A stretch of 32,186 bases of DNA, from the NCBI GenBank assembly GCA_018435125.1, contig JAHDNZ010000002.1, positions 1 to 32,186 on the forward strand, in the 5' to 3' direction. The stretch is from Bacillota bacterium (lineage in GTDB: Bacteria > Bacillota > DTU065). Below, one piece after another: positions 325-15,883 of the stretch (positions are counted from its first letter, which is position 1; every line of letters starts with the position of its first letter). The notes beneath the pieces are model-generated. The model searched no databases, was not told the DNA's origin, and worked only from the letters and a program-made list of their open reading frames with translations. The translations under genes were made by a program, and so were the position numbers.

Positions 325-705
325 TTATTTTTCTACATATAACTCCAGCCCTGGGTACTTAAGTCTAAACTGCTTAAGCGTGCGTTGCCATTGCTGAGAC
401 TCAAACCCTTTAACATCAATAATCTTATAAGTTCCATCTGTATTAAAAACTATAAAATCAGCTTTATAGGTGATTGCTCTATCTTCTGTATTACCTTCAA
501 CCAGGACAAACTGTGGCTGTCTGCAAAAGCCCGCTATCTCTCCTGCACGCATCAAAAGCTTTAGGTTGTTGTAGTATTCTGCTTCTTTCTTTGAGTCGAA
601 GCAAACTCCGTCAACCCATGTTTTTTTACTGTTGTACTTAGTTTTCTTAGGCTTGCTTCCAGCCTTACCTACTAATTCCAAATACTCTTCTTTTGTTAGC
701 CTCAT
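325..705 (-). CDS. DUF1064 family phage nuclease-like protein
   Basis: The 126-residue protein has the layout of DUF1064, a PD-(D/E)XK-fold family in phage replication/recombination modules that is thought to act on DNA junctions or branches. Visible features are a basic N-terminal region (KAGSKPKKTKYNSKKT), the helix SKKEAEYYNNL carrying the first acidic residue, KADFIV (the PD-like position) and IIDVKGF (the D/E-x-K-like position). Its ATG overlaps the TGA of the HNH gene (ATGA at 702-705), so the two nucleases are probably translationally coupled. Nuclease activity is inferred from the family, not proven. Confidence 0.75.
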   Translation of the reverse strand: MRLTKEEYLELVGKAGSKPKKTKYNSKKTWVDGVCFDSKKEAEYYNNLKLLMRAGEIAGFCRQPQFVLVEGNTEDRAITYKADFIVFNTDGTYKIIDVKGFESQQWQRTLKQFRLKYPGLELYVEK

Positions 706-1361
706 ACTAGCACCCCGTAAACGTGGTATTTTGCTTTAAATGAATCTCTGCCTATGTTGTGAGCTTCATCGTGATGTTTTTGGCACAAACAGATCTTTCG
801 ATGGTTGCTATCATCATAATGGGTGCGGTCTCTACCCATACCGATTGCTTCCCAGTGGTGCTCTTCTACGCCTTCTATAGCTCCACAAACAGCACAGAAC
901 CTCTTTTCTAAGGACAACCTGATATATCGCTCTATATCATCAAAGGCTTCTTTTGGAGACTCTGACAAAGGCACTCCAAGCTCAAAGCATAACCTTATCA
1001 GATACTCTATATAGTCACTAGCCAACTCTGAGCTACAATTAGAAAGACTAAAATCATCATACTGTGTAACTTTGACAAAACTTGCTTTGGTCTGCTCTTT
1101 GATGCTCTCTTCGCTTTGACCAGTGAAACTTTCAATATCTTTGTAGATTGCATATATCTTTTTTCGTTGCTCTGGGCTGATCTGTTTGAGCTTTTCACGT
1201 TGTTCTTGTTCGTCAACTAACAGTTCAACCGTAATAGGCTTATCCATAAAATTAAACATATGCTTTAATACTTCTTTAGACTGCTTATCATCTAGAGAAA
1301 GAGTGATTTTCGAGCCTTTCTTTAAAGTTCGTATGTTGTCTATCTCACAAGCGAACTTCAC
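702..1361 (-). CDS. Putative HNH nuclease (HNHc_6 type)
   Basis: The 219-residue protein has a beta-rich N-terminal half of unclear role and a C-terminal HNH domain at about residues 150-205. The zinc and metal signatures are visible: FCAVCG, then VEEHHWEAIG, NHRKICLCQKHHDEAHN. It matches the putative HNHc nuclease family found in early modules of Firmicutes phages, near ssb and recombination genes. It lies next to DUF1064, so the pair may process replication or recombination intermediates. It is not a homing endonuclease by context, since it sits in the operon with a coupled downstream gene. Confidence 0.82.
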   Translation of the reverse strand: MKFACEIDNIRTLKKGSKITLSLDDKQSKEVLKHMFNFMDKPITVELLVDEQEQREKLKQISPEQRKKIYAIYKDIESFTGQSEESIKEQTKASFVKVTQYDDFSLSNCSSELASDYIEYLIRLCFELGVPLSESPKEAFDDIERYIRLSLEKRFCAVCGAIEGVEEHHWEAIGMGRDRTHYDDSNHRKICLCQKHHDEAHNIGRDSFKAKYHVYGVLV

Positions 1362-1376
1362 TGCAACACCTCCATG

Positions 1377-1883
1377 CTAATATTTGCTGCATCTTTTTTC
1401 TCTCGCCATTTTTGAAAAATACTTTGCAAAACATTCTTCTGTATCATTATTACAATTATTATAATTACAGCACCAGTCCCATCGATCATATGGGCAGGAG
1501 CCAGTAATATCAGCTAGTACTACACATGCTTCTTTTAGTGCTGTTTCTGCTTCATCCGCTCTATCTTCCATATCGTAGTAGGGAGAACAGTACATATTCA
1601 CTACTGTTGATAGAACATCAATCCTGTTTTCTAATTCTAGTATTTTTGCTTCCGCTTCTATAGATCTCTTTATCGCCTCTGGCCAACCATCTCTTGCAGC
1701 TGCGATAAACTCCGCATCCGCTCCGGGGTTAGCTTCTTGCCCTCTGGTGTATATCTTGCCACCACCGTAAAAAGAGGTAGTTGCTATAAGTCGGTTGGGT
1801 ACTCCGTCTATTCCCCCGGTGTACCAAGGACCTTTGGTAGCTTTGTTACAAAGTTCGAGGTCTTTCTTCAAATCTCTAGGCAT
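1377..1883 (-). CDS. Phage protein with NKATxGPW N-terminal motif
   Basis: The 168-residue protein begins with DLELCNKATKGPWYTGG and continues with ADAEFIAAARDGWPEAI. This layout (ATxGPW, then a D-x-x-F-I-A-x-A-R block) recurs in many phage early proteins of unknown function. After it comes a helical segment (about residues 70-115) and a Cys-rich tail (CPYDRWDWCCNYNNC) that may bind metal or form disulfides. The start codon overlaps the end of the ASCH gene by 8 bases. No enzymatic role can be assigned. Confidence 0.65.
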   Translation of the reverse strand: MPRDLKKDLELCNKATKGPWYTGGIDGVPNRLIATTSFYGGGKIYTRGQEANPGADAEFIAAARDGWPEAIKRSIEAEAKILELENRIDVLSTVVNMYCSPYYDMEDRADEAETALKEACVVLADITGSCPYDRWDWCCNYNNCNNDTEECFAKYFSKMAREKRCSKY

Positions 1884-2601
1884 TTAACGCCTCCTCCTTG
1901 CTAATCCTCTCAAAGTCGATCACCCACACCCAAGGGTTAATGTCCCAATCCCAACCTGATTTTTCGTTCAGGCTATTCCAATAACCAACGAACTCTTCCC
2001 TTGCCGTAGTGCTACCGTTAAAATTGTTTCCTTCGTGTGTTTTTATATGGCGTATTTTTACAGAAAACCCCTCTGCTCTAGCGCCCTCTTCCGTTATATC
2101 TTGTAATCTTTCGATTCTTACACCTGTAACTTTCAAAAAGATTCGTGCTAGTTCTTTAGACATATGGATTGGCGATCTCCATCTTGTAGGGGATTCCCCT
2201 GGTTTCCAATGATATTCTCCATTTTCATTAATACCGAGTCCCTTTTTTTCGGCATCTTCTGCCGATTGTTCGACATACCTTAAAAATATATCTTCGTCTT
2301 CAACGCAAATCCATTTTCGTTTGTTGCAGTTTCCTGCTTTGTAATCAACTGCTATTACTAGTTCATCTATATCCCAACCATCTATTCGCCACGTTTCTTT
2401 AACATAAAGCATATCTCCGATTTGGTACTTTGGAAAAATATTACCGATTCCCCATTCAACATCGTAGAGATGATAATTATTCGGTGTTTCACATACTTCA
2501 AAAAATCTTTGTGGTTGTGGCTTTACAATTCTCCTAGTGACTGATTTTTTCTCGTTTAATACCGCTTGCACCATCTCGGTACTAAATATAATCGGCTTCA
2601 T
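1876..2601 (-). CDS. ASCH/PUA-like domain phage protein
   Basis: The 241-residue protein opens with KPIIFSTEMVQAVLNEKKSVTRR, typical of phage ASCH-domain proteins with a PUA-like RNA/nucleotide-binding fold. Other matching blocks are GDMLYVKETWR, SPIHMSKELARIFLKVTGVRIERLQDI and EEGARAEGF. ASCH domains are predicted to bind RNA or modified nucleosides; the phage role is unknown. I chose the ATG at 2601 over the in-frame TTG at 2610 because AGAGG lies 9 bases before the ATG but touches the TTG. The gene overlaps its upstream neighbour by 20 bases, which suggests translational coupling. Confidence 0.8.
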   Translation of the reverse strand: MKPIIFSTEMVQAVLNEKKSVTRRIVKPQPQRFFEVCETPNNYHLYDVEWGIGNIFPKYQIGDMLYVKETWRIDGWDIDELVIAVDYKAGNCNKRKWICVEDEDIFLRYVEQSAEDAEKKGLGINENGEYHWKPGESPTRWRSPIHMSKELARIFLKVTGVRIERLQDITEEGARAEGFSVKIRHIKTHEGNNFNGSTTAREEFVGYWNSLNEKSGWDWDINPWVWVIDFERISKEEALNA

Positions 2602-2782
2602 CTTCGTCAACCTCTTTATAAGCTTCGGCCCATTCTTTCAGAACAGAAACAGGGATCATTAAAGTTATTTGCTCCCAGTCTTCTTCCTTCGCTCCCACCA
2701 TTGCACTTTTATCTGTGGTTGCTAGCTTTGTTCCCTTACTATCATTGTATAACCATGCTTGAATAAGCATTTTACTACCCAT
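2582..2782 (-). CDS. Phage hypothetical protein, 66 aa
   Basis: A small acidic protein (MGSKMLIQAWLYNDSKGTKL at the start, ending in EVDEDEADYI). GGAGG lies 8 bases before the ATG at 2782. It overlaps the ASCH gene. I do not recognise the family; the composition suggests a compact soluble alpha/beta protein with a negatively charged tail. Confidence 0.6.
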   Translation of the reverse strand: MGSKMLIQAWLYNDSKGTKLATTDKSAMVGAKEEDWEQITLMIPVSVLKEWAEAYKEVDEDEADYI

Positions 2783-2824
2783 CTACTTTACCTCCAAGGC
2801 TTTTTAGCCCCGCAATATTTTAGC

Positions 2825-3154
2825 TCAGGCCCTACTTTCATATTTCTCGCACCTGCAAGGGTGCGTCATTTCGCAACATTCGTCTGATTTGTGTGTGCAA
2901 TCGTAGCATTTAATGTCAAGCCACCACTCTTGCAGGTATTCGGCACAATAGCCTTCATCTGCATAATCAGATTTTATGAATTCTCGCTTTACTGGCTGAC
3001 AAGGCATACACTCTTTGCTCGCACATACATAGTTTTCATCATCCATATTGTCAGCATGGTCTATATATTTTTCTCCTTTTTTTATCGCGGCCCCGCATAA
3101 ACTACAAACGTGTTCTTTTCTTGCTGTTCTCTCGGTTTCTCTGCAAAAACTCAC
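2825..3154 (-). CDS. Cys-rich zinc-binding phage protein
   Basis: The 109-residue protein carries many CxxC-type knuckles: HVCSLCGAAIKKGEKY near the N-terminus, then VCASKECMPC, CYDCTHKSDECC and HPCRCEKY. The first unit (R-x-x-H-x-C-x-x-C-x-x-x-I-x-x-G-E-x-Y) is a zinc-ribbon pattern frequent in small phage proteins. I chose the GTG at 3154 because GAGGAGG lies about 7 bases upstream; the in-frame GTG at 3160 would almost touch that site. The role is unknown; DNA or protein binding is plausible next to ssb. Confidence 0.65.
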   Translation of the reverse strand: MSFCRETERTARKEHVCSLCGAAIKKGEKYIDHADNMDDENYVCASKECMPCQPVKREFIKSDYADEGYCAEYLQEWWLDIKCYDCTHKSDECCEMTHPCRCEKYESRA

Positions 3155-3184
3155 TTTCACCCCTCCTCTTAGCTATCGCTTGTA

Positions 3185-3598
3185 TTAGAATGGTACCTCA
3201 TCAAAGTTCTTTTCCTCTTCCTCTGCAAATGGGTCTTTCAAGCCATCATCCTGCTCTTCTTGCTCTTTAGCATCAGAGGATTTCTTTTCAAGGAATTGCA
3301 CTGTATCTGCTATTACCTCAGTAACATACCTGCGCCCACCTTCTTTAGCTTCATAGCTTCTGACCCGAAGCTTACCTTCAACAGCAATCAGACGACCTTT
3401 TACTAGATTGTGGGCGAGAGTCTCTGCCAGTTTATTCCATGCGACAATAGGAACGAAGTCTGCCTCCCGTTCACCTTGCTGATTGGTAAAGCCTCTATCT
3501 ACAGCAAGCGTAAACGTAGCGACAGCTTTACCATTCGGGGTGTATTTTAATTCTGGGTCGCGGGTTAAGCGTCCAATTAATATAACACGATTTAGCAT
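3185..3598 (-). CDS. ssb: Single-stranded DNA-binding protein
   Basis: This 137-residue SSB has an N-terminal OB-fold ([20 protein letters not shown], then [23 protein letters not shown] and [15 protein letters not shown]) over residues 1-105. An acidic linker follows, and the conserved tip DEVPF ends the protein. The tip is the docking site for replication and repair proteins. The protein coats single-stranded DNA during phage replication and annealing-type recombination. Its ATG at 3598 follows AAGGAGG. It lies downstream of the DnaB helicase gene and is shorter than host SSBs (about 150-170), as is usual for phage copies. Confidence 0.96.
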
Positions 3599-3617
3599 GT
3601 GTCATAATTCCTCCTTA

Positions 3618-3962
3618 TCAGTCTGTAAGGCCAATCTTGAAGTCTTCAGAATAGGGGTTTTCCTGCCCTCTTCTATGCGAACGTATTATTAAAGCTTGTG
3701 AGTACTTCAGTATGGTTAAAAGCCCCTCATATAAAACAACAAACTCCTTAATGTCATCACTAGTACTAAGTTTATTAGTAGTAGCTTCATATGAAGCTGT
3801 TATAAGAGTTGTGGTCAGTATTTCTTCTATTTCCTGAAGTGCATTACGGTATTGGCTAATCATCTTTGCCCCATCATTGTCGCTTTTTACTTTTCTCACT
3901 TTTAACATCTGTTGAAGGTACTCTTCGTCTGTCATTTTCGTATAATCAATAAAATTAATCAT
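3618..3962 (-). CDS. Phage hypothetical helical protein, 114 aa
   Basis: A mostly helical soluble protein (YTKMTDEEYLQQMLKVRKV at the start, long helices through residue 95). Its ATG at 3962 overlaps the end of the DnaB gene by 8 bases, with AGAAGG about 7 bases upstream, so it is likely coupled to dnaB. No family is recognised. A helicase accessory or loader role would fit the position but is not supported by sequence. Confidence 0.6.
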   Translation of the reverse strand: MINFIDYTKMTDEEYLQQMLKVRKVKSDNDGAKMISQYRNALQEIEEILTTTLITASYEATTNKLSTSDDIKEFVVLYEGLLTILKYSQALIIRSHRRGQENPYSEDFKIGLTD

Positions 3963-5424
3963 ATTGAGCCTTCTTTTGCCCTTTATATAGCTGAGTTACA
4001 TTTTTGGGCTTTGAAATTTCTCCAAAACTTTGATTGTAAACAGGTTTCCCATTATTTCCCTGAATAGCTTGTAAATAGTTTTGCAATTTGTCATTGTCAA
4101 TGTCCCTAAAATTACTGGTCTCTGGGCTGAAATGCAGATATGCTGTTCCTGTCTTGCCTGTCCTTTGTTTAGCTATAATAACTTCTGTAATTCCATCCAC
4201 TTCCGGTGCAGGATTACCATTGGTGTAATATGCATCTCTATACAATAACATCACCAAGTCTGCATGCTCTTCTATATTCCCTGAGTCACGCAAATCACTC
4301 ATCTGTGGCCTTTTGTTATCCCTGGACTCTACACCACGGTTTAACTGCGAAAGCAGGAATAAAGGACAATTCAGCTCACCAGCAAGATTTCTAAGCTCAA
4401 GCACTGCCTGTCCTACCTGCCTGACATAGCCATCTCTACTGTACCGATTATCTCCTCGGATTAACTGCAAATAATCAACCGTAATGCAAGCTAGTTTACC
4501 TATTTTCGCTTGCGTTGCCTTTGCTATAGAACATATCTCAGCAGTGGTTAGCCCCCTTTTATCACAAAAGAAGATTGGCAATCTTGATACTGTGTTAAGA
4601 CCTTCAGCGAATTCTGCCATCAGTTGGGCTTTATCATCCTCATCTTTTGGTCTGCGTCTAAACTCACTGGCATCTCTTTCGGCTTCTCTTGCCACCATCC
4701 GTTCCAGTACCTGTTTATCTTTCATTTCTAAAGCAAAAATAAGGCTTGGGTACAACTCGCCGTTCTTACCCATTTGGCGAGAAATATCCATCATTAATTG
4801 CCCAGCAAAAGCAGATTTTCCCATACTGGGACGTCCCGCAATAATGATTAAATCGCCGGGTTGAAATCCTTCCGTCCAGTAATTGATGCTTCCAAGAGAG
4901 CTGTATATACCACGCTTAGCAATACCTTCCATACGTTCTGTAAAATCAACTAAAAGATCAGTTGCTACTTCTTGGGCTGTACGCACATTTGCTGCTAGTT
5001 CTTGCTCCATAACTGCCATTAATTCTTGTAAGATATCAGACATTAATTCATCTACAGGCTTATCCTCTTGTAGCCGGCTATAAGCTTTTCTAAGCGCTTT
5101 TTCAATGTTTACTTTCTTAGCTTCAGCAAGCATTGCTTCCCGAATATCGTCCCATTTACTGTATGGTGAAAAGTAATCCATAAACACCATAAGCGCTTTT
5201 TTAAGATTGCTAGCATCTTGGTGACTAAATAACTGGGCGTTGAGACTGGTTATAGTAACCTTTCCTTTTTCTTTATAGAGTTCTTTTGCTGTTATATAGA
5301 GCTCACGTACTGCGGGGTCGTTAAATATCTCAGCCGGTATATATTTAAAAGCTTCCGCTTGTGCATTTTTATCTTTAAGTAATATCATAAGTGCCGATCG
5401 TTCAATCTCACTAGACAGTGCCAT
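3955..5424 (-). CDS. dnaB: Replicative DNA helicase (DnaB family)
   Basis: The 489-residue helicase has the standard two-part layout: a helical N-terminal domain (about residues 5-110, starting MALSSEIERSALMILL) and a RecA-like C-terminal motor. Visible motor motifs are Walker A (IAGRPSMGKSAF, about residues 190-200), Walker B (ITVDYLQLIRG), an arginine-rich stretch SQLNRGVESRDNKRPQMSDLRDSG and the DLVMLLYRD block. It unwinds the phage fork as a hexamer. I chose the ATG at 5424 because a strong GGGGG-rich site precedes it by about 9 bases and phage DnaB proteins begin this way. An 11-codon upstream extension (5457) is possible. It overlaps the DnaD-like gene by 14 bases. Confidence 0.95.
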   Translation of the reverse strand: MALSSEIERSALMILLKDKNAQAEAFKYIPAEIFNDPAVRELYITAKELYKEKGKVTITSLNAQLFSHQDASNLKKALMVFMDYFSPYSKWDDIREAMLAEAKKVNIEKALRKAYSRLQEDKPVDELMSDILQELMAVMEQELAANVRTAQEVATDLLVDFTERMEGIAKRGIYSSLGSINYWTEGFQPGDLIIIAGRPSMGKSAFAGQLMMDISRQMGKNGELYPSLIFALEMKDKQVLERMVAREAERDASEFRRRPKDEDDKAQLMAEFAEGLNTVSRLPIFFCDKRGLTTAEICSIAKATQAKIGKLACITVDYLQLIRGDNRYSRDGYVRQVGQAVLELRNLAGELNCPLFLLSQLNRGVESRDNKRPQMSDLRDSGNIEEHADLVMLLYRDAYYTNGNPAPEVDGITEVIIAKQRTGKTGTAYLHFSPETSNFRDIDNDKLQNYLQAIQGNNGKPVYNQSFGEISKPKNVTQLYKGQKKAQYD

Positions 5425-6331
5425 ATCGTTGCACCCCCTCCCTCTCCCAGTATGCATCGAAGGTGAGTATGCCTGCTGTCTGCCAAGACCTAATAATGCC
5501 TTTCATATACGCCCATCGTCGGGCAGTATTTTTCCCAGTATCATATGCTTCTAAAGCTATCTGTAAGGCCACAATAAGAAGCTGAGGATCTATACCTTGG
5601 TTTATAAAGCTCTCTGCCTCTGAATAAACAGTAGGTGATAATAAACCTATCTCTTTCTGATAAAGGTCAATAAACTGAGAGAAGTAATCATCTTCTTTAG
5701 GTTCATCTGCAATTTGTTTTTCTGGTTCGTTCAGTTTGTCGACAGGGTCGGCTTCGCTAGCTAGCTTACTCTCTGTAGTAGTCTCTGTAGAAGTCTCTGT
5801 ATTTGTATCAACATTTTTGCAAAGAGGTGTCGACAAATTTGTTGGGAGGGTGTCTACAAATTTGTCCATAGGTGTAGACAAAGTTAAATTATTATCAACC
5901 TTTTCTTCCTCAGTTTTAGAACAGGTTATTTCTTTAATTTTTTCAGCTACTGGCTCAACATACATTACATTATTTAATCTCAAGCCAGTTTTTGTCACAA
6001 TATCCCTAAGCTCTATGGTAATCAAGCCAGCTTCTTCTAACCGTTTGATTGCTCTGCGTACTTGATTCTTGCTAAAGCCAAATTGCTCTGCAAACTGGTC
6101 ATAACTACGTTGTAGTTTATCTTCTTTGAACTTAGTTCTGTACCCAACAACTTTGCCTGTAGCCTCATCACGTACTTCTACAGGTCTATACCAATAAATA
6201 ATGTCTGAAAGCAACATAACACCTATTGAATCTGGCAACCCAGCATCAGTTTTTATATGCTTAAACCAGTTCATTGGCACAATATTTCCTTGAAAATCAA
6301 TCTGCCCTATTTGCTGAACTGTATTACTCAT
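5411..6331 (-). CDS. Phage replication initiator, winged helix + DnaD-like domain
   Basis: The 306-residue protein resembles replisome-organiser proteins of Firmicutes phages. The N-terminal part (about residues 15-110) includes WFKHIKTDAGLPDSIGVMLLSDIIYWY and a winged-helix segment (FAEQFGFSKNQVRRAIKRLEEAGLI) suited to origin DNA binding. A low-complexity Thr/Asp/Ser linker follows, then a DnaD/DnaB_2-type helical domain (about 220-290) with YMKGIIRSW, near the usual YxxxIL.W motif. It probably marks the origin and helps load the downstream DnaB helicase. The start is uncertain: ATG 6331 and GTG 6337 are both served by the GGGGTGG site. Confidence 0.82.
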   Translation of the reverse strand: MSNTVQQIGQIDFQGNIVPMNWFKHIKTDAGLPDSIGVMLLSDIIYWYRPVEVRDEATGKVVGYRTKFKEDKLQRSYDQFAEQFGFSKNQVRRAIKRLEEAGLITIELRDIVTKTGLRLNNVMYVEPVAEKIKEITCSKTEEEKVDNNLTLSTPMDKFVDTLPTNLSTPLCKNVDTNTETSTETTTESKLASEADPVDKLNEPEKQIADEPKEDDYFSQFIDLYQKEIGLLSPTVYSEAESFINQGIDPQLLIVALQIALEAYDTGKNTARRWAYMKGIIRSWQTAGILTFDAYWEREGVQRYGTV

Positions 6332-6336
6332 TCTCA

Positions 6337-6555
6337 CTATAGCCACCCCTTTATAATATGGATAGCAAAATATATCAGAGAAAAAATCACTAAACAATTC
6401 ATAAAGGTTTCAAATGTCCCGGAAAAGAATATCTTATCTGTGGCCTTATCTAGCCAGCTGTAAAACTCTTTTTTAGCTAGACTAAGGTCGACCTCTATTT
6501 TAGGGAGAGCACGCCCGCCAGCGCGCTCTCTCGTTGTTTGTAAAGCTTTCACCAT
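6337..6555 (-). CDS. Small phage membrane protein, C-terminal TM
   Basis: A 72-residue protein with a basic N-terminal part, an amphipathic middle (SLAKKEFYSWLDKATDKI) and one C-terminal membrane helix (FMNCLVIFSLIYFAIHIIKG). That makes it a predicted tail-anchored protein with the soluble part in the cytoplasm. GGAGGGG precedes the ATG at 6555. The stop overlaps the possible GTG start of the initiator gene. The function is unknown. Confidence 0.68.
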   Translation of the reverse strand: MVKALQTTRERAGGRALPKIEVDLSLAKKEFYSWLDKATDKIFFSGTFETFMNCLVIFSLIYFAIHIIKGWL

Positions 6556-6568
6556 TACCCCTCCTACG

Positions 6569-6766
6569 CTACATTGTATTAAGTTGGTTTTTAGGCACTA
6601 CATATTCATACTTAGAAACTTTATCTTTAAATGTATAGCAATCTTCTCTCTCTTCAATAAGTTCAAGTCGTTGTTCTAATATTGGTAATCTAGCTACTCG
6701 CATACTTGTTATGGCAAGTACATATATAATCATAATGGTAAATATTACCATTAGGACTTTTGACAT
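6569..6766 (-). CDS. Small phage membrane protein, N-terminal TM
   Basis: A 65-residue protein with an N-terminal membrane helix (VLMVIFTIMIIYVLAITSM), then a charged helix (LEQRLELIEEREDC) and a short soluble tail. The topology suggests either a single-pass anchor or an uncleaved signal. GGAGGG lies 7 bases before the ATG at 6766, which is better than the adjacent TTG at 6769. It forms a pair with the next membrane-protein gene between the recombination and replication modules. No family is recognised. Confidence 0.65.
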   Translation of the reverse strand: MSKVLMVIFTIMIIYVLAITSMRVARLPILEQRLELIEEREDCYTFKDKVSKYEYVVPKNQLNTM

Positions 6767-6800
6767 CAAGTTACCCTCCCAAGAGGCAGGTTTCCCTGCC

Positions 6801-7358
6801 TCATTCAGTCTTTACATAGAAGTTGCCATCTTCTTCCTCTTTCTCAACTACAGTGACACCATCAAGGAGCTCACCAGTTTCAACATCAAAAGCTTGGTAT
6901 CCCTTTACCATAATTTTTTTCTTGAACTCTGCCCATTTTAGCTTCTCAACGGTTTCTGTCAGCCCATATTGCCTTGCTAGTGGTATTAACTTCTCATCGT
7001 CACGTTCAAGAATAGCTTGTTTCTTTCGAGTGCCTATCGTGCCACAAGGCAGTTTATAAGACTTCCTTTTACCGAGTCGACCCTTATCAGTAAGTTCTTT
7101 ATAGTATCCCTGTAAAGCAACTGTAAAGAAGTTTATAGAAGCTTTATCATCTTGATCAGCTTGCTCTGCCCAACGTTGAATACGCTCAATCTCTCTTTTA
7201 ACAAGTTCATCTCTGTTAGCTATATTTTGTTCAGCTTGTTTTATTTTTCGAAGTGCCCAATTTGCAGCATCATCGCTTTTTATTTCCCAACCATCTTGTT
7301 TAGCATCATCAAACTCTGTATCAAGAAATTGCATTAAATCTTTTTCAAGAACAGCCAT
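6801..7358 (-). CDS. gam: Host-nuclease inhibitor Gam-like protein
   Basis: The 185-residue protein matches the Mu Gam-like family, which binds DNA ends and shields them from host exonucleases such as RecBCD/AddAB. The long N-terminal coiled-coil helices (ANWALRKIKQAEQNIANRDEL and KREIERIQRWAEQ) and the conserved core KSYKLPCGTIGTRKKQ, followed by ERDDEKLIPLARQYG, are all visible. Its start overlaps the stop of the Sak4-like ATPase gene (TAATG), so end protection and recombination are probably coupled. The length is normal for the family. Confidence 0.9.
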   Translation of the reverse strand: MAVLEKDLMQFLDTEFDDAKQDGWEIKSDDAANWALRKIKQAEQNIANRDELVKREIERIQRWAEQADQDDKASINFFTVALQGYYKELTDKGRLGKRKSYKLPCGTIGTRKKQAILERDDEKLIPLARQYGLTETVEKLKWAEFKKKIMVKGYQAFDVETGELLDGVTVVEKEEEDGNFYVKTE

Positions 7359-8296
7359 TAGCTAACCAGCTCCTTCTGTTTATCCAATATCGCTTGCCAG
7401 CTATCACTGTCAAAGGCAAGGATCAGAATATCGTGCTGCTCTTCTGTTAACCTGTCCCAGTTGACATCACCATTAACAATGGCTTCTGGTGCAATATCAG
7501 CTACAACTGCAACCATGTCTGATTTCTCCGTACAACCTTTGGATTTTACCAAATCGTAGAACTTAATAAGCCTTTCTTTAGTCATTGACCAAGGCTGAGG
7601 TTCTGGTTCTACACCAGCTTCGAGCCATTGCTTAATTGCTTTAGCTAGCTCTTCGCCCGGCTTTTCCCATATCGTGTTTAACATACCTTTAGCTCTACTC
7701 TTGCTTATTTGCCCGGTATTATCTAGCGTCATATCGAGTACAAGGTCAAACTCGTATTCAGCACCGTCCCTAGTTATGGGAGCCATTCCGACCTTGCGTA
7801 TAGTCTTATTGCCTTTTGAATCCTCTGTCTGCACATAGTCCATCTTGCTTCTCATTGTTGCAATGATATGGCACTTGCTTGTAGTTATAGCATCCAGGAA
7901 TTTGTTGTGTAGCGGTGTAACATCTGCCCAGGCAGCATAGCTGTTTCCCTTCCACTTAGTGCGGGTGAACTTCTCTACCAGTTCCAAACAGCCACCCTTA
8001 CCTGACCATTCATGAGTCATGCTGTCTATTACAATGCAATCATAGCCTTCTTTTTCGAACAATTTTATTGCTTCAATATAGACGTCTGGTGAATAGTCAT
8101 CTGCTAATTCAATAACATCAAAATCAAACTCATCAGCATATTTACTTGCTGTTCCGTTTTCTGAATCAATTACGCCAACTTTATCAAACATCAGTGTTGC
8201 TAGTTTAAGGGATGTGTAGGTCTTCCCAGACCCGCTCGGTCCCATTATCGCCATTCTTAATTTCGACTGTTTTCTAGTCGCTTTCTTAATTTGCAT
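7358..8296 (-). CDS. Sak4-like RecA-fold ATPase (phage recombinase)
   Basis: A 312-residue P-loop ATPase. Walker A is GPSGSGKT at residues 19-26, DSENGTASKYAD follows, and Walker B is DCIVIDSMTHEW. The segment HIIATMRSKMDYVQ and the Lys/Arg-rich GMAPITRDGAEYEFDLVLDM region are typical of the AAA_24 / Sak4 group of phage recombination ATPases. These promote single-strand annealing with a phage SSB. The C-terminal 80 residues look like a separate helical domain. Placement with Gam and SSB supports a recombination or repair role. GGAGG lies about 8 bases before the ATG. Confidence 0.83.
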   Translation of the reverse strand: MQIKKATRKQSKLRMAIMGPSGSGKTYTSLKLATLMFDKVGVIDSENGTASKYADEFDFDVIELADDYSPDVYIEAIKLFEKEGYDCIVIDSMTHEWSGKGGCLELVEKFTRTKWKGNSYAAWADVTPLHNKFLDAITTSKCHIIATMRSKMDYVQTEDSKGNKTIRKVGMAPITRDGAEYEFDLVLDMTLDNTGQISKSRAKGMLNTIWEKPGEELAKAIKQWLEAGVEPEPQPWSMTKERLIKFYDLVKSKGCTEKSDMVAVVADIAPEAIVNGDVNWDRLTEEQHDILILAFDSDSWQAILDKQKELVS

Positions 8297-8360
8297 TTTT
8301 GTATTCCTCCCAATTACTCACGGTAAGTCTCCCCACCTTGAGTGTTATGATTTTAAAAGC

Positions 8361-8639
8361 TTAATTAGCTTGCTTTACTGAATCTGGGTAAGGTAAGAAA
8401 ATAACAGCTTTATTCCTCACTCCTAAAGCTTTACTACGAACATCAAACCACTGGTGAGAATCTCCAGAATATACTTCTGTTTGTACATCAGTTTCAATTT
8501 CACAAATCATTTCTTCAAGTTTTTGTGCCACATCATTGGCTTCTTCATTAGACCTTAAATCCGAACTAAATACGTTAATTTCAATTGTTACACTGCAGCC
8601 TAGCTCCTTCTCTAAGGCCGCCTTAAATTCTCTAAGCAT
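8361..8639 (-). CDS. Phage hypothetical protein, 92 aa
   Basis: A soluble alpha/beta protein (MLREFKAALEKELGCSVTIEI, later a beta-rich C-terminus ending FLPYPDSVKQAN). AAGGAGG lies 8 bases before the ATG at 8639. The Shine-Dalgarno site overlaps the last of four alternating complementary modules in the upstream gap, so its translation may be RNA-regulated. No family is recognised. Confidence 0.65.
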   Translation of the reverse strand: MLREFKAALEKELGCSVTIEINVFSSDLRSNEEANDVAQKLEEMICEIETDVQTEVYSGDSHQWFDVRSKALGVRNKAVIFLPYPDSVKQAN

Positions 8640-8735
8640 TGTATTGCCCTCCTTAAATGTGATATACTAAGGGCAGAAGTATTGGGGAATCTTCTACCCT
8701 TGCCCTTTTGAGTGCTCACAACACGTCAAAGGGCA
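8640..8735 (-). promoter_or_regulatory. Candidate RNA switch: four alternating hairpin modules
   Basis: Read leftward, this gap holds TGCCCT (in 8735-8730), AGGGCA (8706-8701), TGCCCT (8675-8670) and AGGGCA (8650-8645). Module 1 extends to a 10-base arm (8726-8735) that includes the upstream gene's stop codon and pairs with 8701-8711, with one bulge and an inner GTG/CAC stem. Module 3 lies in another 10-base stem, 8691-8700 with 8670-8679, with one T-G wobble. Module 4 overlaps the Shine-Dalgarno site of the next gene. Pairings 1:2, 2:3 and 3:4 are mutually exclusive in part. There is no U-tract, so translational control is more likely than termination. A protein-binding repeat array is the alternative. 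Confidence 0.5.
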
Positions 8736-8929
8736 TTTTCTTTTACTGTCGGTTCTGAAGCTATCAAGATTGGCTCACCGCCATAGAACACCTCAACAAC
8801 TGCACTGTGCTTTCTGGGTAGAGTTCGCAGGAGCTTGTCTGCTTTCTCTTCAGCTAACTCCATCTCCGGGAAGCTGCCTTTGAACCGCCTTACCCGGTTT
8901 GTTAAAGTAAGATAAACCTCGTATTGCAT
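8726..8929 (-). CDS. Phage hypothetical protein, 67 aa
   Basis: A short protein with an N-terminal beta segment (MQYEVYLTLTNRVRRFKG), a helix (EMELAEEKADKLLRTL) and two C-terminal strands (SAVVEVFYGGEPILIASE). AAGGAGG lies upstream of the ATG at 8929. Its stop codon forms part of module 1 of the downstream candidate RNA switch. The family is not recognised. Confidence 0.62.
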   Translation of the reverse strand: MQYEVYLTLTNRVRRFKGSFPEMELAEEKADKLLRTLPRKHSAVVEVFYGGEPILIASEPTVKENAL

Positions 8930-8941
8930 AACACCACCTCC

Positions 8942-9727
8942 TTAAGCTATCTCTCTCAGATGCCCTAAAATCTCATTAATATCGGTCTCGTATAGCTTCA
9001 AAGCAATCTTATAGAGATTATCTATATGTCCGAACTTCTCAGCGTATTTAACAACTGATAGCTTGTCCTTACTCCTTTTCTGCTTTAAGTTGTAACCTTC
9101 ACATCTAGCTCTTAAGTCTACCGAATGCACTTCTTTGTACCGGTCATATAGCTCATTCCAGCGCTCAGAGAAGTTAGCGTTTTTGTACCGAACTACTTTA
9201 TTTAACACGTTTCGCTTAGCATAGATATCAATATCATCAGTAACACCTTTGATAACTTCTGTTTTATGGTCTAAAGCTTTCTGCTTGTCCTCTAGTTGAT
9301 TGCGTCTATATCTATCTAAGTTGGCAGCGGCTATTCCTGCCTCTTCTACAGTACGTGCTTGAAAGATAGCCAGTTGAAGCTTTTGTTCTTCTGTAAGCAT
9401 GGTTATAGCTTGTTCCAAGCTCTCTTCTAGCTGGTGGAATCTGTTAATGTAGGTGGCGGTGAATATTGCTCCTTTAAGGCCGGTAAGTTTGTGGGCTATG
9501 AATTCGCAACCCTTCTTTGTGATTAAGTAACATTTATACTCCTTGCCTGTACCGGCTTGATAACTACTCTCTAAAAAGAATTCATCAGAACGCAAATCTG
9601 CGTTTTGACCTAAATAACCAAGATAAACTTCAATGTCCCTTAATAAATCTGCATGCCTTTTCTCAACCATATCCGCAACCTCTCGGCTGTCCAGTGTTAA
9701 AACTTTCTTTTCTTGCAAGTCGTTCAT
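8942..9727 (-). CDS. rha: Rha-family phage regulatory protein (antirepressor-like)
   Basis: The 261-residue protein starts with the Rha domain signature: VLTLDSREVADMVEKRHADLLRDIEVY, then FFLESSYQ, KEYKCYLITKKGCEFIAHKLTG and FTATYINRFHQLEE. The C-terminal 150 residues are helical and charged, like the ORF6C/KilA-C type tails of antirepressors. Rha and antirepressor proteins modulate lysogeny or interfere with host regulators. The ATG overlaps the previous gene's stop (ATGA), so it is coupled within the early operon. The N-terminal domain is clear; the C-terminal assignment is less sure. Confidence 0.88.
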   Translation of the reverse strand: MNDLQEKKVLTLDSREVADMVEKRHADLLRDIEVYLGYLGQNADLRSDEFFLESSYQAGTGKEYKCYLITKKGCEFIAHKLTGLKGAIFTATYINRFHQLEESLEQAITMLTEEQKLQLAIFQARTVEEAGIAAANLDRYRRNQLEDKQKALDHKTEVIKGVTDDIDIYAKRNVLNKVVRYKNANFSERWNELYDRYKEVHSVDLRARCEGYNLKQKRSKDKLSVVKYAEKFGHIDNLYKIALKLYETDINEILGHLREIA

Positions 9728-11036: not shown

Positions 11037-11273
11037 TCAGTTGGTGCTTGGTTGAACATCATGTCTACGTTCTGTAGTCTTAGTGTGCAAAAAAATTTGA
11101 TCTGGGGTTTTTTCTAAAACATTGGAAATCTTAACCGCCATCTCATATGTTAGTCTCCTTTCTCCTCGTTCAATTTGAGAGTAGTACTGTTTACTTATAT
11201 TTAATTCCTCAGCCATTACAGCTTGCGTTAATCCATTTTCTAACCTTAACGCCTTTAGCTTTTCTAAAGTCAT
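11037..11273 (-). CDS. Cro-like HTH regulator (Xre family)
   Basis: The 78-residue protein is essentially one helix-turn-helix domain: LKALRLENGLTQAVMAEELN, ISKQYYSQIERGERRLT and MAVKISNVLEKTPDQIF. This is the Xre/Cro layout, with the recognition helix around SKQYYSQIERG. It is the first gene of the early operon and probably acts at the operators just upstream, opposing the CI-like repressor at 11429. The leader from promoter to ATG is about 25 bases. A 16-base repeat of the promoter-proximal sequence lies in its last codons. Confidence 0.88.
   Translation of the reverse strand: MTLEKLKALRLENGLTQAVMAEELNISKQYYSQIERGERRLTYEMAVKISNVLEKTPDQIFLHTKTTERRHDVQPSTN
11062..11077. repeat. Copy 2 of TGTCTACGTTCTGTAG, in cro coding end
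   Basis: An exact 16-base direct repeat of 11286-11301. It contains the dyad CTAC-gttct-GTAG. It lies in the final codons of the Cro-like gene and may be a remote operator. Confidence 0.6.
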
Positions 11274-11428: not shown

Positions 11429-11794
11429 ATGTTCATTGGAAATAGGCTCAAAGAATTAAGAAATAAGAAAAGCATCACTCAAGAGGAGTTAGGCAAGACT
11501 ATTGGACTTTCCAAACAAACAATTTCTACTTATGAACTAGGTACACGAGAACCAGATAACGACACACTTTTAAAACTGGCTGATTTCTTCGCTGTCTCAT
11601 TAGACTATCTTTTAGGCCGTACCGACAACCCCGAAGGACTCACCGAGGAAGAGGAACAAAAACATATTGAGCTAGACGAAGTACTTAGCCACAAAAAAAT
11701 ACTCTTCTACGGTGAGCCTCTTTCACTCGAAGAGAAAGAAGCGGTGGTAAATGTACTAAAAATTATTAAGCAAAAAGATAAAGAAAAAAAGTGA
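11429..11794 (+). CDS. CI-like phage repressor (Xre family)
   Basis: The 121-residue regulator has an N-terminal helix-turn-helix (LKELRNKKSITQEELGKTIG, LSKQTISTYELGTREPDNDT, LLKLADFFAVSLDYLLGRTD) of the Xre type. A short acidic linker and a C-terminal helix probably used for dimerisation follow. There is no LexA/S24 peptidase domain. With ImmA/IrrE next door, induction probably follows the ICEBs1/phi105 ImmR-ImmA scheme, in which the peptidase cleaves the repressor. AAGGAGGT precedes the ATG. It is divergent from cro and shares the operator region. Confidence 0.9.
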   Translation: MFIGNRLKELRNKKSITQEELGKTIGLSKQTISTYELGTREPDNDTLLKLADFFAVSLDYLLGRTDNPEGLTEEEEQKHIELDEVLSHKKILFYGEPLSLEEKEAVVNVLKIIKQKDKEKK

Positions 11795-11811: not shown

Positions 11812-11844
11812 GAAGTGATATTATCTTCCTAAGAGGTGATCATC

Positions 11845-12291
11845 ATGAATATTGTACAACAAAAAGTAATAGATTTAGTACGGACATATAAAACGCGCGA
11901 CCCTCGTGACCTAGCAGAGATGTTACAGCTTCCCATACTGGAAATACCTTTGCCTAATAAATTTCGAGGGTTTTTACATAATAGCGAAGATAATGCTGCT
12001 ATAGTTGTTAATAAGTCTTTGACCGAAAGAGCACAGCGGACTGTAATTGCTCACGAAATTGGCCATTATTGCCTAGACCCTGAGTTTGAGTTATGTATGC
12101 ATTTGGCTGACAAAGTGCGTGCTACGAAGTCGGAGCAGAGAGCTGATTTATTTGCAGCTACTCTTTTGGTCGAATCGTGGAAAGGAGAATCTTGGGAGAT
12201 TGCTGAAAAGTATGATTTGGAAGAAGAGTTGGTTGTTTCTGTTATGAAGCAACTGGAATATAATGACAAAAAAGCAAGCGCTGCACTGTAA
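11845..12291 (+). CDS. immA: ImmA/IrrE-type metallopeptidase
   Basis: The 148-residue protein has the zinc motif HEIGH at residues 70-74 and, downstream, the third-ligand region EQRADLFAATLLV. The order matches ImmA/IrrE (DUF955). These peptidases cleave the partner repressor to induce the element. It lies 50 bases after the CI-like gene, with the usual immR-immA order. I chose the ATG at 11845 because AGAGG lies 8 bases before it; the GTG at 11836 overlaps that site. All catalytic residues appear intact, unlike the decayed copy that follows. Confidence 0.92.
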   Translation: MNIVQQKVIDLVRTYKTRDPRDLAEMLQLPILEIPLPNKFRGFLHNSEDNAAIVVNKSLTERAQRTVIAHEIGHYCLDPEFELCMHLADKVRATKSEQRADLFAATLLVESWKGESWEIAEKYDLEEELVVSVMKQLEYNDKKASAAL

Positions 12292-12651: not shown

Positions 12652-12909
12652 ATGACTAAAAAAGAGAAAATTTTGGAGGACATCAAAAATAACCCAAATG
12701 ATGTTTCACCTGAGTTACTTCATAGTTTATTAATTTATTATGGGTTTATTCACAGATGCGGGAAGGGTAGCCATCAAATATATAAGCACCCAAAATATAC
12801 TTATATGATGCTATCCGTCCCCAATCGTCGACCCATTAAAGCGATCTATGTAAAACGAGCTATTGAGTATATAGATGATATTATTGCTTTCCGGCAAATG
12901 GGAGATTAG
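12652..12909 (+). CDS. hicA: HicA-type toxin (mRNA interferase)
   Basis: The 85-residue protein resembles HicA, a small double-stranded-RNA-binding-fold toxin that cleaves mRNA. The catalytic histidine pattern G-K-G-S-H is at residues 37-41, followed by QIYKHPKY, a beta strand (MMLSVPNRRPIKAIYV) and a final helix (KRAIEYIDDII). It precedes hicB, in the usual toxin-first order. The weak ribosome binding site right at the ATG is expected for a toxin kept low. It is slightly longer than typical HicA (about 60-80). Confidence 0.85.
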   Translation: MTKKEKILEDIKNNPNDVSPELLHSLLIYYGFIHRCGKGSHQIYKHPKYTYMMLSVPNRRPIKAIYVKRAIEYIDDIIAFRQMGD

Positions 12910-12938
12910 AGGGTTTGAGGATTTAAGGAGGTAAAAGG

Positions 12939-13424
12939 ATGGACTATAGAATTACTTTAAGAGCATTGTCCGAAGAAGAAGGTGGCGGTTGGTTAGCTGA
13001 GATACCTGAGCTTCCTGGTTGTATGTCTGATGGTGAAACTACGCAGGAAGCGCTTGAGAATCTCCAAGACGCAAAAGAAACATGGTTAGAAATGGCTAAA
13101 GAAACCAACATGCGTATACCAGAACCTAGTAACATCGACAGCTACAGCGGGAAATTCCTTTTGAGAATACCAAAGAGTCTTCATCGGCACCTAACACTTG
13201 AAGCTGAGAGAGAAGGTACTAGCCTAAATCAATACATTGTTTATTTGCTTTCAAATAGACATGTGATGACTCTTTTTAACGAGTCAGCTTCTTCAGAAGG
13301 ACACGTAAAGCTACGTAATTACATTGAGCTATTAGTTCCTAAAGAATCATGGGAAGCAGCGCTGAAGACCGAAAAACCTGATATTTATAGTATTTTTACC
13401 GAAAGGATGAAAACTCGTGTCTAA
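12939..13424 (+). CDS. hicB: HicB-type antitoxin with DNA-binding domain
   Basis: The 161-residue antitoxin has the partial RNase-H-like HicB fold at residues 1-65 (YRITLRALSEEEGGGWLAEI, PELPGCMSDGETTQEALENL). A ribbon-helix-helix-like module lies at about 70-110 (KFLLRIPKSLHRHLTLEAER, EGTSLNQYIVYLL). A 50-residue C-terminal extension follows that most HicB proteins lack. It should bind HicA and repress its own promoter. A strong AAGGAGG precedes the ATG, so antitoxin should outweigh toxin. The third gene's GTG overlaps its stop by 8 bases. Confidence 0.9.
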   Translation: MDYRITLRALSEEEGGGWLAEIPELPGCMSDGETTQEALENLQDAKETWLEMAKETNMRIPEPSNIDSYSGKFLLRIPKSLHRHLTLEAEREGTSLNQYIVYLLSNRHVMTLFNESASSEGHVKLRNYIELLVPKESWEAALKTEKPDIYSIFTERMKTRV

Positions 13425-13803
13425 AGACATTCTTTCTCTAAATGACAGAGAGTTAATTAGCTTAATATTTAAGGATTTATCAGAAGATGATCCGTTAATG
13501 CCAAAGCAAGAAACGCATTCATATACACATACAATCGAAGGCGCTAAATGTATAGTGATTGCAAAAACCACAATCCAGATACCTTCACCATCAACAAAGG
13601 GATTGAACAAATACTTAGAAATAACGAACAAGATAATATTTGACATCCAAGAGAAAAACTACACAAACGATGATATTGCTAAAGCGTTAGAACAAAGCGA
13701 AGTAGTGATACTAAGCCCTAATTCATATATTGTAGCTTTCATAGCGGATCAAATTGGTTTATGGCCCCTGTTATTACCACCTGTATTGCCTCAAGAGAGT
13801 TAA
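13417..13803 (+). CDS. Unknown third gene of the hicAB operon
   Basis: A 128-residue protein starting at GTG 13417, overlapping hicB by 8 bases, with AAAGGATG upstream. It begins MSKDILSLNDRELISLIFKD and contains a central beta region (THTIEGAKCIVIAKTTIQIP), a helix (NDDIAKALEQSE) and a C-terminal strand/turn (VVILSPNSYIVAFIAD). No family is recognised. Coupling to hicB suggests a role tied to the toxin-antitoxin pair, such as a modulator. Its position just before the integrase also makes a recombination-directionality role conceivable, without sequence support. Confidence 0.7.
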   Translation: MSKDILSLNDRELISLIFKDLSEDDPLMPKQETHSYTHTIEGAKCIVIAKTTIQIPSPSTKGLNKYLEITNKIIFDIQEKNYTNDDIAKALEQSEVVILSPNSYIVAFIADQIGLWPLLLPPVLPQES

Positions 13804-13902: not shown

Positions 13903-15456
13903 ATGCCTTATTGCATCTACCTAAGAAAATCAAGAGCTGATGAAGAAGCTGAGCTTAGAGGTGAAGAAGATACTCTTGCTAGGCACGAAAGGGCCCTATT
14001 AGACCTCGCTAAGCGACAAAAGCTTAATATAACAGCAATTTATAAAGAAGTAGTATCAGGGGAAACCATCTCTGCAAGACCTCAGATGCAACGCCTTCTT
14101 TCAGAGATTGAACAAGGATGCTGGGAAGGTGTATTGGTAATGGAAGTAGAACGTTTGGCTAGAGGTGACACTATAGACCAAGGGATAGTTGCCCAAGCCT
14201 TTAAATATAGTGGCACTAAGATTATTACCCCATCAAAGACATACGATCCAAATAACGAATTTGACGAAGAGTTTTTTGAGTTTGGCTTATTTATGTCACG
14301 TCGGGAATATAAAACCATTAATAGGCGTCTACAACGTGGTAGAATTGCATCTGTGAAAGAAGGAAAATGGGTTGGCAATCGTCCCCCCTATGGTTATGTA
14401 AGAAAAAAGCTGGAAAACCAGAAAGGGTTTACTCTTGAACCACATCCAGAACAAGCTGATGTTATAAAGCTTATCTTTTCTTTATATACGCAAGAAAGAA
14501 TGGGAGTATCTCTAATAGCCAACCGTTTAAATGAGCTAAATATACCAGCCTATAAAGGTGGTCAATGGGTTCCAGCTTCTTTACGAGATATTTTGTCTAA
14601 TCCTGTTTATGCAGGTAAGATCCGTTGGAATTGGCGACCTCAAACAAAAAAAGTCGTGGATGGCGAAGTAATAATTGAACGACCCAAATCCAAACCTGAA
14701 GACTGGATACTAGTAGATGGTTTACATGAAGCCCTAATAGATCAGAAAACATGGGAACAAGCTCAAGAACTATTAGCAGTTCAGAATCCCCTACCTATCC
14801 CACGTATAAAAACTTTGAAAAACCCTCTAGCAGGATTAATTGTTTGTAGTGTATGTGGCCGTAGAATGGTGCGTAAGCCATACAAGTCAGGTTACCCAGA
14901 TACTCTGATGTGTCCACTTACAGGTTGCCCTAATGTTAGTTCGCATTTATATCTTGTGGAAGAAAAGCTATTAGAAGCATTAGAAGAATGGCTTAAAGAA
15001 TATTTGTTAGACCTACGTATTAACGAAACTAATAAACCAGCAAACGTACAATTAGGACTTATCGAAAGCTCTATTAAAAAACTGGAAGATGAATTAAAAA
15101 CTTATGAAGAGCAAATGGGAAACTTACACGACCTACTTGAACGAGGTATATACTCAACAGAAACATTCCTTGAACGATCGAAAATATTAGCTGACAGGAT
15201 AAGCTCCAATGAGAAGCATCTTAGCTCTCTCACAGCGGAATTTGATAAAGAGACCTCAAGAGAAAAAAGCAAAAAAACAATCATACCAAAAATTGAAAGG
15301 GTATTAGAAGTCTATAATCAAACAAAAGACCCTGCATTAAAAAATGACCTCTTGAAGGAGGTCCTAGAAAAGGTAGTATATACCAAAACTGTGAATGGTA
15401 GACATGGCAAAATTGATGATTTTAATCTTTCTTTGTATCCTAAGATGCCCACCTAA
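13903..15456 (+). CDS. int: Large serine integrase
   Basis: The 517-residue recombinase has an N-terminal resolvase domain (MPYCIYLRKSRADEE with the catalytic Ser at residue 10, and VERLARGDTID in the active site). A recombinase domain follows (about 165-275, GNRPPYGYVRK and SLRDILSNPVYAGKIRWN), then a zinc ribbon (about 313-345, CSVCGRRM ... MCPLTGCPN). A C-terminal coiled coil (about 385-460) governs directionality. It inserts and excises the phage between attP and attB. I chose the ATG at 13903 because GGGGAGGAG lies 9 bases upstream; an in-frame ATG at 13852 has no such site. The gene ends 13 bases before the cotJC junction, placing attR directly after it. Confidence 0.96.
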   Translation: MPYCIYLRKSRADEEAELRGEEDTLARHERALLDLAKRQKLNITAIYKEVVSGETISARPQMQRLLSEIEQGCWEGVLVMEVERLARGDTIDQGIVAQAFKYSGTKIITPSKTYDPNNEFDEEFFEFGLFMSRREYKTINRRLQRGRIASVKEGKWVGNRPPYGYVRKKLENQKGFTLEPHPEQADVIKLIFSLYTQERMGVSLIANRLNELNIPAYKGGQWVPASLRDILSNPVYAGKIRWNWRPQTKKVVDGEVIIERPKSKPEDWILVDGLHEALIDQKTWEQAQELLAVQNPLPIPRIKTLKNPLAGLIVCSVCGRRMVRKPYKSGYPDTLMCPLTGCPNVSSHLYLVEEKLLEALEEWLKEYLLDLRINETNKPANVQLGLIESSIKKLEDELKTYEEQMGNLHDLLERGIYSTETFLERSKILADRISSNEKHLSSLTAEFDKETSREKSKKTIIPKIERVLEVYNQTKDPALKNDLLKEVLEKVVYTKTVNGRHGKIDDFNLSLYPKMPT

Positions 15457-15462
15457 CTGATA

Positions 15463-15480
15463 TCCTCCCGGAACGGAGGA
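15463..15480. other. Predicted attR: prophage-host junction in cotJC
   Basis: In-frame cotJC homology begins at the Gly codon 15470-15472; before it the sequence does not match CotJC. The junction is centred on the dyad TCCTCC-cggaac-GGAGGA, whose centre lies at 15471/15472. Serine integrases cut at a central dinucleotide of a dyad-like site, so crossover here is likely. Only one att site is in the window, so the shared core cannot be confirmed. Confidence 0.7.
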
Positions 15481-15856
15481 ACTGGCTCATATGGAAATAA
15501 TCGCCGCTCTGGTTTATAACCTTATAAAAGATGCTTCTATCGCTGAAATTAAAGCTGCTGGGCTAGACCCCTATTATGCCGACCATGATAAAGCGGTTTA
15601 TTTTATAAACGCATCCGGTAACCCATGGACTGCAGCGTATATTCAAAGCAAAGGTGATCCAGTTGCAGATTTAGTCGAAGACATGGCTGCTGAACAAAAA
15701 GCCAGAGCTACCTATGAATATCTCATTCATTTGTCAGATGACCCTTTAGTTACAGATACTTTAAGGTTTTTAAGAGAAAGAGAAGTTGTTCACTTCCAAC
15801 GTTTTGGTGAAGCCTTAGTCAAAGTGCAAGACTGTATGAATAAAAAAAACTATTAA
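15470..15856 (+). pseudogene. cotJC: cotJC 3' part, split by the prophage
   Basis: These 128 codons match the C-terminal two thirds of CotJC, the spore-coat manganese catalase: GTEELAHMEIIAALVYNLIK, AYIQSKGDPVADLVEDMAAE and FLREREVVHFQRFGEALVKV. CotJC is about 189 residues, so about 60 N-terminal residues are missing, including one expected Glu ligand of the di-manganese site. The ligand regions EELAH, AEQKARATYE and REREVVHFQRF remain. The fragment is open and undamaged, as expected if excision restores it. An internal ATG (15491), with GGAGG about 11 bases upstream, could give a short product that lacks the EELAH ligands. Confidence 0.92.
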
Positions 15857-15883
15857 TAAAGGGAGCTTAAAGCTCCCTTTATT
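15855..15883. terminator. Bidirectional terminator after cotJC
   Basis: AATAAAGGGAGCTT (15855-15868) and its complement (15870-15883) form a perfect 14-base inverted repeat around one base. T/A-rich flanks on both sides suit the two convergent genes. Confidence 0.85.

Follow-up and report, generated by a model that had tools for sequence, protein, structure and literature searches.

Prophage boundary and the 3′ part of cotJC

The window, by which we mean the whole stretch of DNA that was analysed (32,186 nucleotides), corresponds to one entire contig, C16, out of the 91 that make up a draft genome of 2.55 Mb. It contains phage genes that lead up to a large serine integrase, followed by the 3′ part of the spore coat gene cotJC. 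The following features were identified:

325..9727, minus strand: phage replication and early region (ORFs, PHROGs)
3185-3598, minus strand: SSB-like gene within the replication region
3955-5457, minus strand: DnaB-like helicase (PHROGs DnaB-like replicative helicase, E 4e-91)
11037..11273, minus strand: Cro-like HTH regulator of the prophage (PHROGs phrog_3/phrog_8 transcriptional regulators)
11429..11794, plus strand: CI-like repressor (tblastn matches to HTH proteins near the lineage A integrases of L063, L124 and L008)
11836..12291, plus strand: putative ImmA/IrrE-type metallopeptidase-like protein (ORF with a HEIGH motif)
12652..13424, plus strand: HicA-like/HicB-like toxin-antitoxin pair (12652-12909, 12939-13424; HicB from Pfam and PHROGs, HicA from position and size)
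13417..13803, plus strand: 128-aa protein immediately upstream of the integrase (no Pfam or PHROGs match, and no counterpart near the other integrases)
13903..15456, plus strand: large serine integrase of lineage A, 517 aa, specific for codon 65 of cotJC (Pfam Resolvase, Recombinase, Zn_ribbon_recom)
15456..15505, plus strand: attR, with phage arm ACTGATATCCTCCCGGAACGGAG, crossover GA (15479-15480) and cotJC arm (from comparison with attL, L003 1861-1895)
15481..15856, plus strand: 3′ part of cotJC, residues 66-189 (remainder of codon 65 through the stop codon; Mn_catalase match)

The integrase reading frame starts at 13903 and its stop codon (15454-15456) overlaps the start of attR. The frame from 15470 to 15856 contains zero stops and matches positions 63-198 of the Mn_catalase model (Pfam, E 5e-34), in agreement with a preliminary description of this DNA, in which an integrase was seen to end just before an uninterrupted 3′ fragment of cotJC. 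That description also let cotJC begin at 15470 and placed a shared core at 15470-15472. The frame is indeed open from there, but positions 15470-15478 are the phage attP arm, which reads GGA ACG GAG (G-T-E) and so resembles cotJC itself; host sequence starts at 15479-15480, where the crossover dinucleotide GA lies in codon 65. Downstream of cotJC, positions 16422-17429 encode a predicted membrane protein, PTS-type sugar transporter-like or similar, which appears to be an ordinary host gene.

The 5′ part of cotJC and the other end of the prophage

A genome-wide search for the Mn-catalase family gave matches in exactly two places, C16:15470-15838 (model positions 63-198) and C79:1678-1872 (model positions 1-66). 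The second contig (C79, also L003) encodes the beginning of the cotJ operon:

L003 1253-1417: cotJA, upstream of cotJB
L003 1389-1676: cotJB, upstream of the 5′ part of cotJC
L003 1678-1872: 5′ part of cotJC, 65 codons, adjoining cotJB

The 5′ part runs on into a short read-through that ends at a stop. The remainder of the contig is occupied by phage genes, all on the minus strand, for a holin-like protein, an amidase, a tail fibre, a baseplate, a tape measure and a tail sheath. A 5′ fragment at the far end of the prophage, with cotJA and cotJB ahead of it, had been predicted from the window, and all of this was recovered, with phage lysis and tail genes behind the fragment. The second complete cotJC gene that had been named as counting against the idea was not encountered, there being no further Mn catalase in the genome. 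Nor was an excised copy (attB) found in the window's genome.

With a tail sheath and a tape measure on L003 and with DnaB and a repressor in the window, the element has the gene content of a contractile-tailed temperate phage; head genes were not located. C16 and C79 thus hold the two ends of one prophage, with a gap between them where the head genes would lie; because the att halves are complementary, we infer that the contigs belong together. The host genome encodes SpoIVA, so the host probably sporulates.

Attachment sites and the rejoined protein

The left attachment site, attL, reads ...GATATCGGCACAGAGGAATCAGTCCCGGGAGGTTATCAG and attR reads ...CTGATATCCTCCCGGAACGGAGGAACTGGCTCATATGG. The two share GAGGAA (window 15476-15481), inside which lies the GA crossover at the start of codon 65. 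In G001, which has a split at the same codon, the two ends have only the dinucleotide GA in common, which pins the crossover there. The complementary join, a reconstruction of attP, is ACTGATATCCTCCCGGAACGGAGGAATCAGTCCCGGGAGGTTATCAGT and is symmetric around GA at 19 of 23 positions, a near-palindrome typical of the attP of a serine integrase. Joining attL to attR yields CotJC in frame, with 189 codons and a terminal stop. The structural part of the preliminary description, namely that a prophage splits cotJC into two intact halves and that precise excision would restore the frame, was thereby borne out.

Both halves of the rejoined protein match PF05067, and in the alignment it resembles the solved Mn catalases 1jku and 4r42. 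The metal ligand positions (Glu, Glu-His, Glu, His) are kept; by the ligand numbering of 1jku, the 5′ part would supply Glu35 and Glu65 and the 3′ part His68, Glu135 and His167. With the ligands divided between the halves, neither part could bind both metals.

Insertions at codon 65 in other genomes and in free phages

A search for the Mn-catalase family in 149 relatives gave several genomes with cotJC in at least two places, and inspection revealed true splits. Relatives of the window integrase (49-61% identity) were found at the same cotJC codon in at least 10 other genomes; in G049 and G001 the crossover falls at codon 65 as in the window. When the window integrase was compared with 398 genomes of the phylum, 16 genomes matched. 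Nine of these, counting the window, reached an identity of at least 50% in this comparison, and in every one of the nine cotJC is interrupted at codon 65; the more distant matches are not at cotJC. In the one-contig genome G339, the cotJC parts are 53.5 kb apart, with terminase, portal, head, sheath and endolysin genes between them.

The same integrase lineage is found outside host genomes. On three free-phage IMG/VR contigs (L007, L008, L009), a lineage A integrase lies next to a palindromic attP that is intact and contains the cotJC core. When viral contigs were scanned for this core, 31 were recovered, of which only four, all with a lineage A integrase and two with the same attP, have strongly symmetric arms (18-22/24), as compared to at most 15/24 in the rest; complementary attP sites were seen in the free-phage contigs L007, L177 and L008/L009. 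The isolated Paenibacillus larvae phage phiIBB_Pl23 has an integrase that is 56% identical to that of the window and a matching attP that is symmetric at 17/24 positions. Phages of the lineage A clade thus circulate and target cotJC.

Three further genomes deserve mention. In G006, from the same family, the end of L051 and the start of L052 overlap by 62 bases, and L052 begins exactly at the GA crossover. A partial cotJC match in G042 was set aside because it is a 33% identical relative and not clearly a cotJC split. In G104, several partial copies, some of them damaged, lie behind an intact cotJC within approximately 20 kb (L056 and L057, 791-812 kb); the damaged copies beside an intact one led us to leave it out of the count, and they are possibly remnants of repeated insertions.

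Other crossover points and multiply interrupted genes

Beyond lineage A, five more serine-recombinase groups were found, which use four crossover points other than codon 65. Overall, at least 16 spore-forming genomes have cotJC cut, always at one of a small number of fixed positions, and the mobile elements responsible belong to several unrelated kinds. The crossover is at GG in codon 62 in G076 (7.9 kb element) and G074 (22 kb element). At codon ~30, G382, G340 and G145 share one recombinase lineage and G036 and G387 another, the assignment of G387 being based on the opening residues of its recombinase. Codon ~54 is used in G387, and codon ~135 in G199, G224, G161 and G001. Among the lineages compared, which did not include the codon-54 recombinase, identity is at most ~31%.

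Several genes are interrupted more than once. Two cuts were found in G382, G161, G224, G001 and the IMG/VR contig L190, and three in G387 (L208:1808-9584, contig C13), where the four pieces rejoin into a full-length CotJC. Across 16 genomes, all 22 junctions tested give an in-frame, stop-free join, and they yield 15 complete CotJC proteins. Phage-free elements of 3.2-3.3 kb with an intact recombinase were identified in G224 (site II), G161 (site III) and G382 (site I).

The elements differ widely in their cargo. The codon-54 element of G387 carries a gerA, gerB, gerC germinant-receptor operon and its own serine recombinase. The minimal 3.3 kb element of G224 (L135:1079-4404) encodes a small HTH protein, a histidine-kinase-type ATPase protein and an integrase, and the 3.2 kb element at codon ~30 in G382 (L127:2164-5372) places an Fe/Mn superoxide dismutase gene within a catalase gene. 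The element of approximately 22 kb on C13 of G074 (L047/L048) carries genes for an NADH-dependent FeFe hydrogenase, a NuoF-like protein and HydE/F/G, along with formate-THF ligase, FolD and a methylene-THF reductase-like gene, which is unusual cargo for an excisable element. In G001, the C-terminal part of cotJC occurs twice in tandem behind the codon-135 element (L049:17135-19247), possibly as a spare 3′ end or through tandem insertion, and another serine recombinase (724-2322) ends immediately upstream of cotJC.

Maintenance of the split genes

The preliminary description took the intact, open half-gene as a sign of function. The frame is open as stated, but taken by itself this says little about function, since a gene interrupted only recently would be intact too, and in-frame rejoining on its own proves little because any recent conservative insertion gives it. 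More can be learned from comparisons between split genes. The cotJC genes of G199 and G224 differ with a dN/dS of 0.03 at a dS of ~1.1, and their site-III recombinases (codon ~135) are 91% identical with a dN/dS of 0.05 at a dS of 0.8; common descent of this insertion is uncertain, since G404 is near-identical to G199 and has an uncut cotJC. On the branch of the window's own gene, 8 unique amino acid changes were counted as compared to 2 in an intact relative, mostly in the last seven residues. This excess could be early relaxation. With dS close to saturation, the dN/dS of this branch gives no date for the insertion.

An alternative to a regulated rearrangement is that cotJC is a conserved landing site unneeded for growth, which is switched off in lysogens and restored only upon induction. 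With its CI/ImmA/int module, the window prophage does have the look of an ordinary temperate phage, free phages with a matching attP exist, and the three intact relatives in the same family are without the prophage, so that the insertion in the window may be young. Against a mere landing site speak the phage-free elements of 3.2-9.9 kb at cotJC sites that keep intact recombinases, as expected if the host needs the recombinase, the cotJC pieces that all stay open even in genes cut two or three times, and the low dN/dS across split genes. Moreover, in spore-formers the elements of this class that are already known are excised in the course of sporulation (PMC4191935, PMC5595907). We consider this alternative unlikely, if still the most serious one. 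Taken together, recurrent insertion, genes in three or four pieces and tiny elements with intact recombinases favour an excision that would restore cotJC.

Excision might also occur without developmental timing, stochastically or with growth phase, which would give a mixed population of intact and split genes as for yin, whose excision is heterogeneous (PMC10747680). The 62-base contig overlap at GA in G006 is the assembly branch expected between an occupied and an empty site, but it is circumstantial, since a search of G006 for a phage end carrying the branch sequence found none; we regard this possibility as improbable. That the split is produced by chimeric contigs or misassembly is hardly credible: the cotJC halves do lie on separate contigs of a draft genome, but the att halves are complementary and give a palindromic attP, and G076, G074, G001 and G382 each show the same arrangement within one contig, as does the one-contig genome G339 with its 53.5 kb phage.

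Comparison with known elements

The arrangement resembles that of SPbeta in B. subtilis, an apparently complete temperate phage inside the mother-cell spore-envelope gene spsM, with a large serine integrase (SprA) beside one end and precise excision that rebuilds the gene (PMC4191935). It differs in its target and in its integrase, which is of another lineage (29.5% identity to the SPBc2 integrase). SPbeta also has a directionality factor, SprB, and nothing SprB-like was found here. As with skin in sigK of B. subtilis and C. difficile (PMC5025042, PMC6957869), a serine recombinase element interrupts a mother-cell sporulation gene, but skin is phage-defective and its target is a sigma factor. 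CotJC is a coat enzyme, so that failed excision would not block sporulation. B. subtilis without this protein is reported to have no clear defect (PMC12122855, 2025), a point against a regulated rearrangement.

Sporulation genes are likewise split by gin (gerE), vfbin (spoVFB), vrin (spoVR) and yin (yabG) (PMC5595907, PMC10747680). Gin is phage-free (PMC5595907), as are several of the cotJC elements, but unlike in these four cases several cotJC genes hold two or three elements at once. The heterocyst elements in nifD, fdxN and hupL of Anabaena are also excised developmentally in a terminal cell type, which restores the gene (PMC6957869), although in cyanobacteria and with different genes and development. 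In common with the skin/SPbeta/gin class, the window element lies inside the coding region of a sporulation gene, has its own serine recombinase by an att site, shares a core between its ends and would leave a restored frame upon excision. The C. difficile prophage phi027, located by cotG/CDR20291_1465 (CotJC-like), was considered as the same case and rejected: no gene is split there, and the neighbour, a 678-bp ORF with attR upstream of it, is reported to be a distinct gene downstream of the prophage (PMC11222575, PMC12122855). In the literature searched, to which most subscription papers did not belong, the split targets described are sigK, spsM, spoVFB, spoVR, gerE, yabG and kamA. Within that literature cotJC was not found as an element target, and an earlier mention is possible.

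A model for the reassembly of cotJC

The split, the att sites, the in-frame restoration and the use of the same site in many genomes and by free phages can be read directly from the DNA, and the pattern across genomes suggests that the gene is reassembled while the spore is built. We put at roughly two in three the probability that recombination between attL and attR rebuilds the cotJC split by the codon-65 phage, most likely in the mother cell as for skin and SPbeta. Under this model, a contractile-tailed temperate phage has integrated by means of its large serine integrase into an attB formed by conserved cotJC codons (Asp-Ile-Gly-Thr-Glu-Glu-Leu-Ala-His). The crossover took place at GA in codon 65, which encodes a metal-ligand glutamate. 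The lysogen thus has cotJC in two parts, residues 1-65 and 66-189, neither of which could form the dimanganese site alone. Recombination of attL with attR, which would need a directionality factor, would then excise the phage and leave an intact, in-frame cotJC.

The B. subtilis cotJ operon is expressed in the mother cell under sigma-E. Excision would presumably occur in the mother cell when the cotJ operon is expressed and supply CotJC for the coat, and the forespore would retain the prophage. We infer the occurrence of excision, its timing to sporulation and its confinement to the mother cell, the last by analogy with skin, SPbeta and gin (PMC4191935, PMC6957869, PMC5025042, PMC5595907). A search for a directionality factor common to the integrase neighbourhoods found only generic HTH repressors to recur. 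A scan of the prophage and of the regions upstream of 22 recombinases for the sigma-E consensus gave no excess, but it also missed the cotJA promoters used as positive controls and so had no power.

Seen more broadly, cotJC could be a general docking gene for developmentally excised elements in Bacillota. Six separate recombinase groups would use about five crossovers in its most conserved codons, and stacked insertions would keep the gene in two to four pieces until several ordered excisions assemble it in each mother cell. The cargo inherited by way of the spore would range from phages and a germinant-receptor operon to genes for superoxide dismutase, a hydrogenase and one-carbon metabolism; we hold the chances for and against this to be evenly balanced.

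Significance

The preliminary observation is correct, its interpretation is structurally right and functionally plausible, and the locus exemplifies a wider pattern. Few sporulation genes are known to be split by excisable elements, and a gene for a coat enzyme now joins them. What began as one odd locus has become a pattern that is testable in many genomes, among them those of isolates, and in an isolated P. larvae phage. The resolved att sites define a set of serine integrases with known targets. Should excision prove developmental, few sporulation genes would be interrupted as often as cotJC, which occurs in up to four pieces, and several elements could be removed in the mother cell at no inheritance cost.
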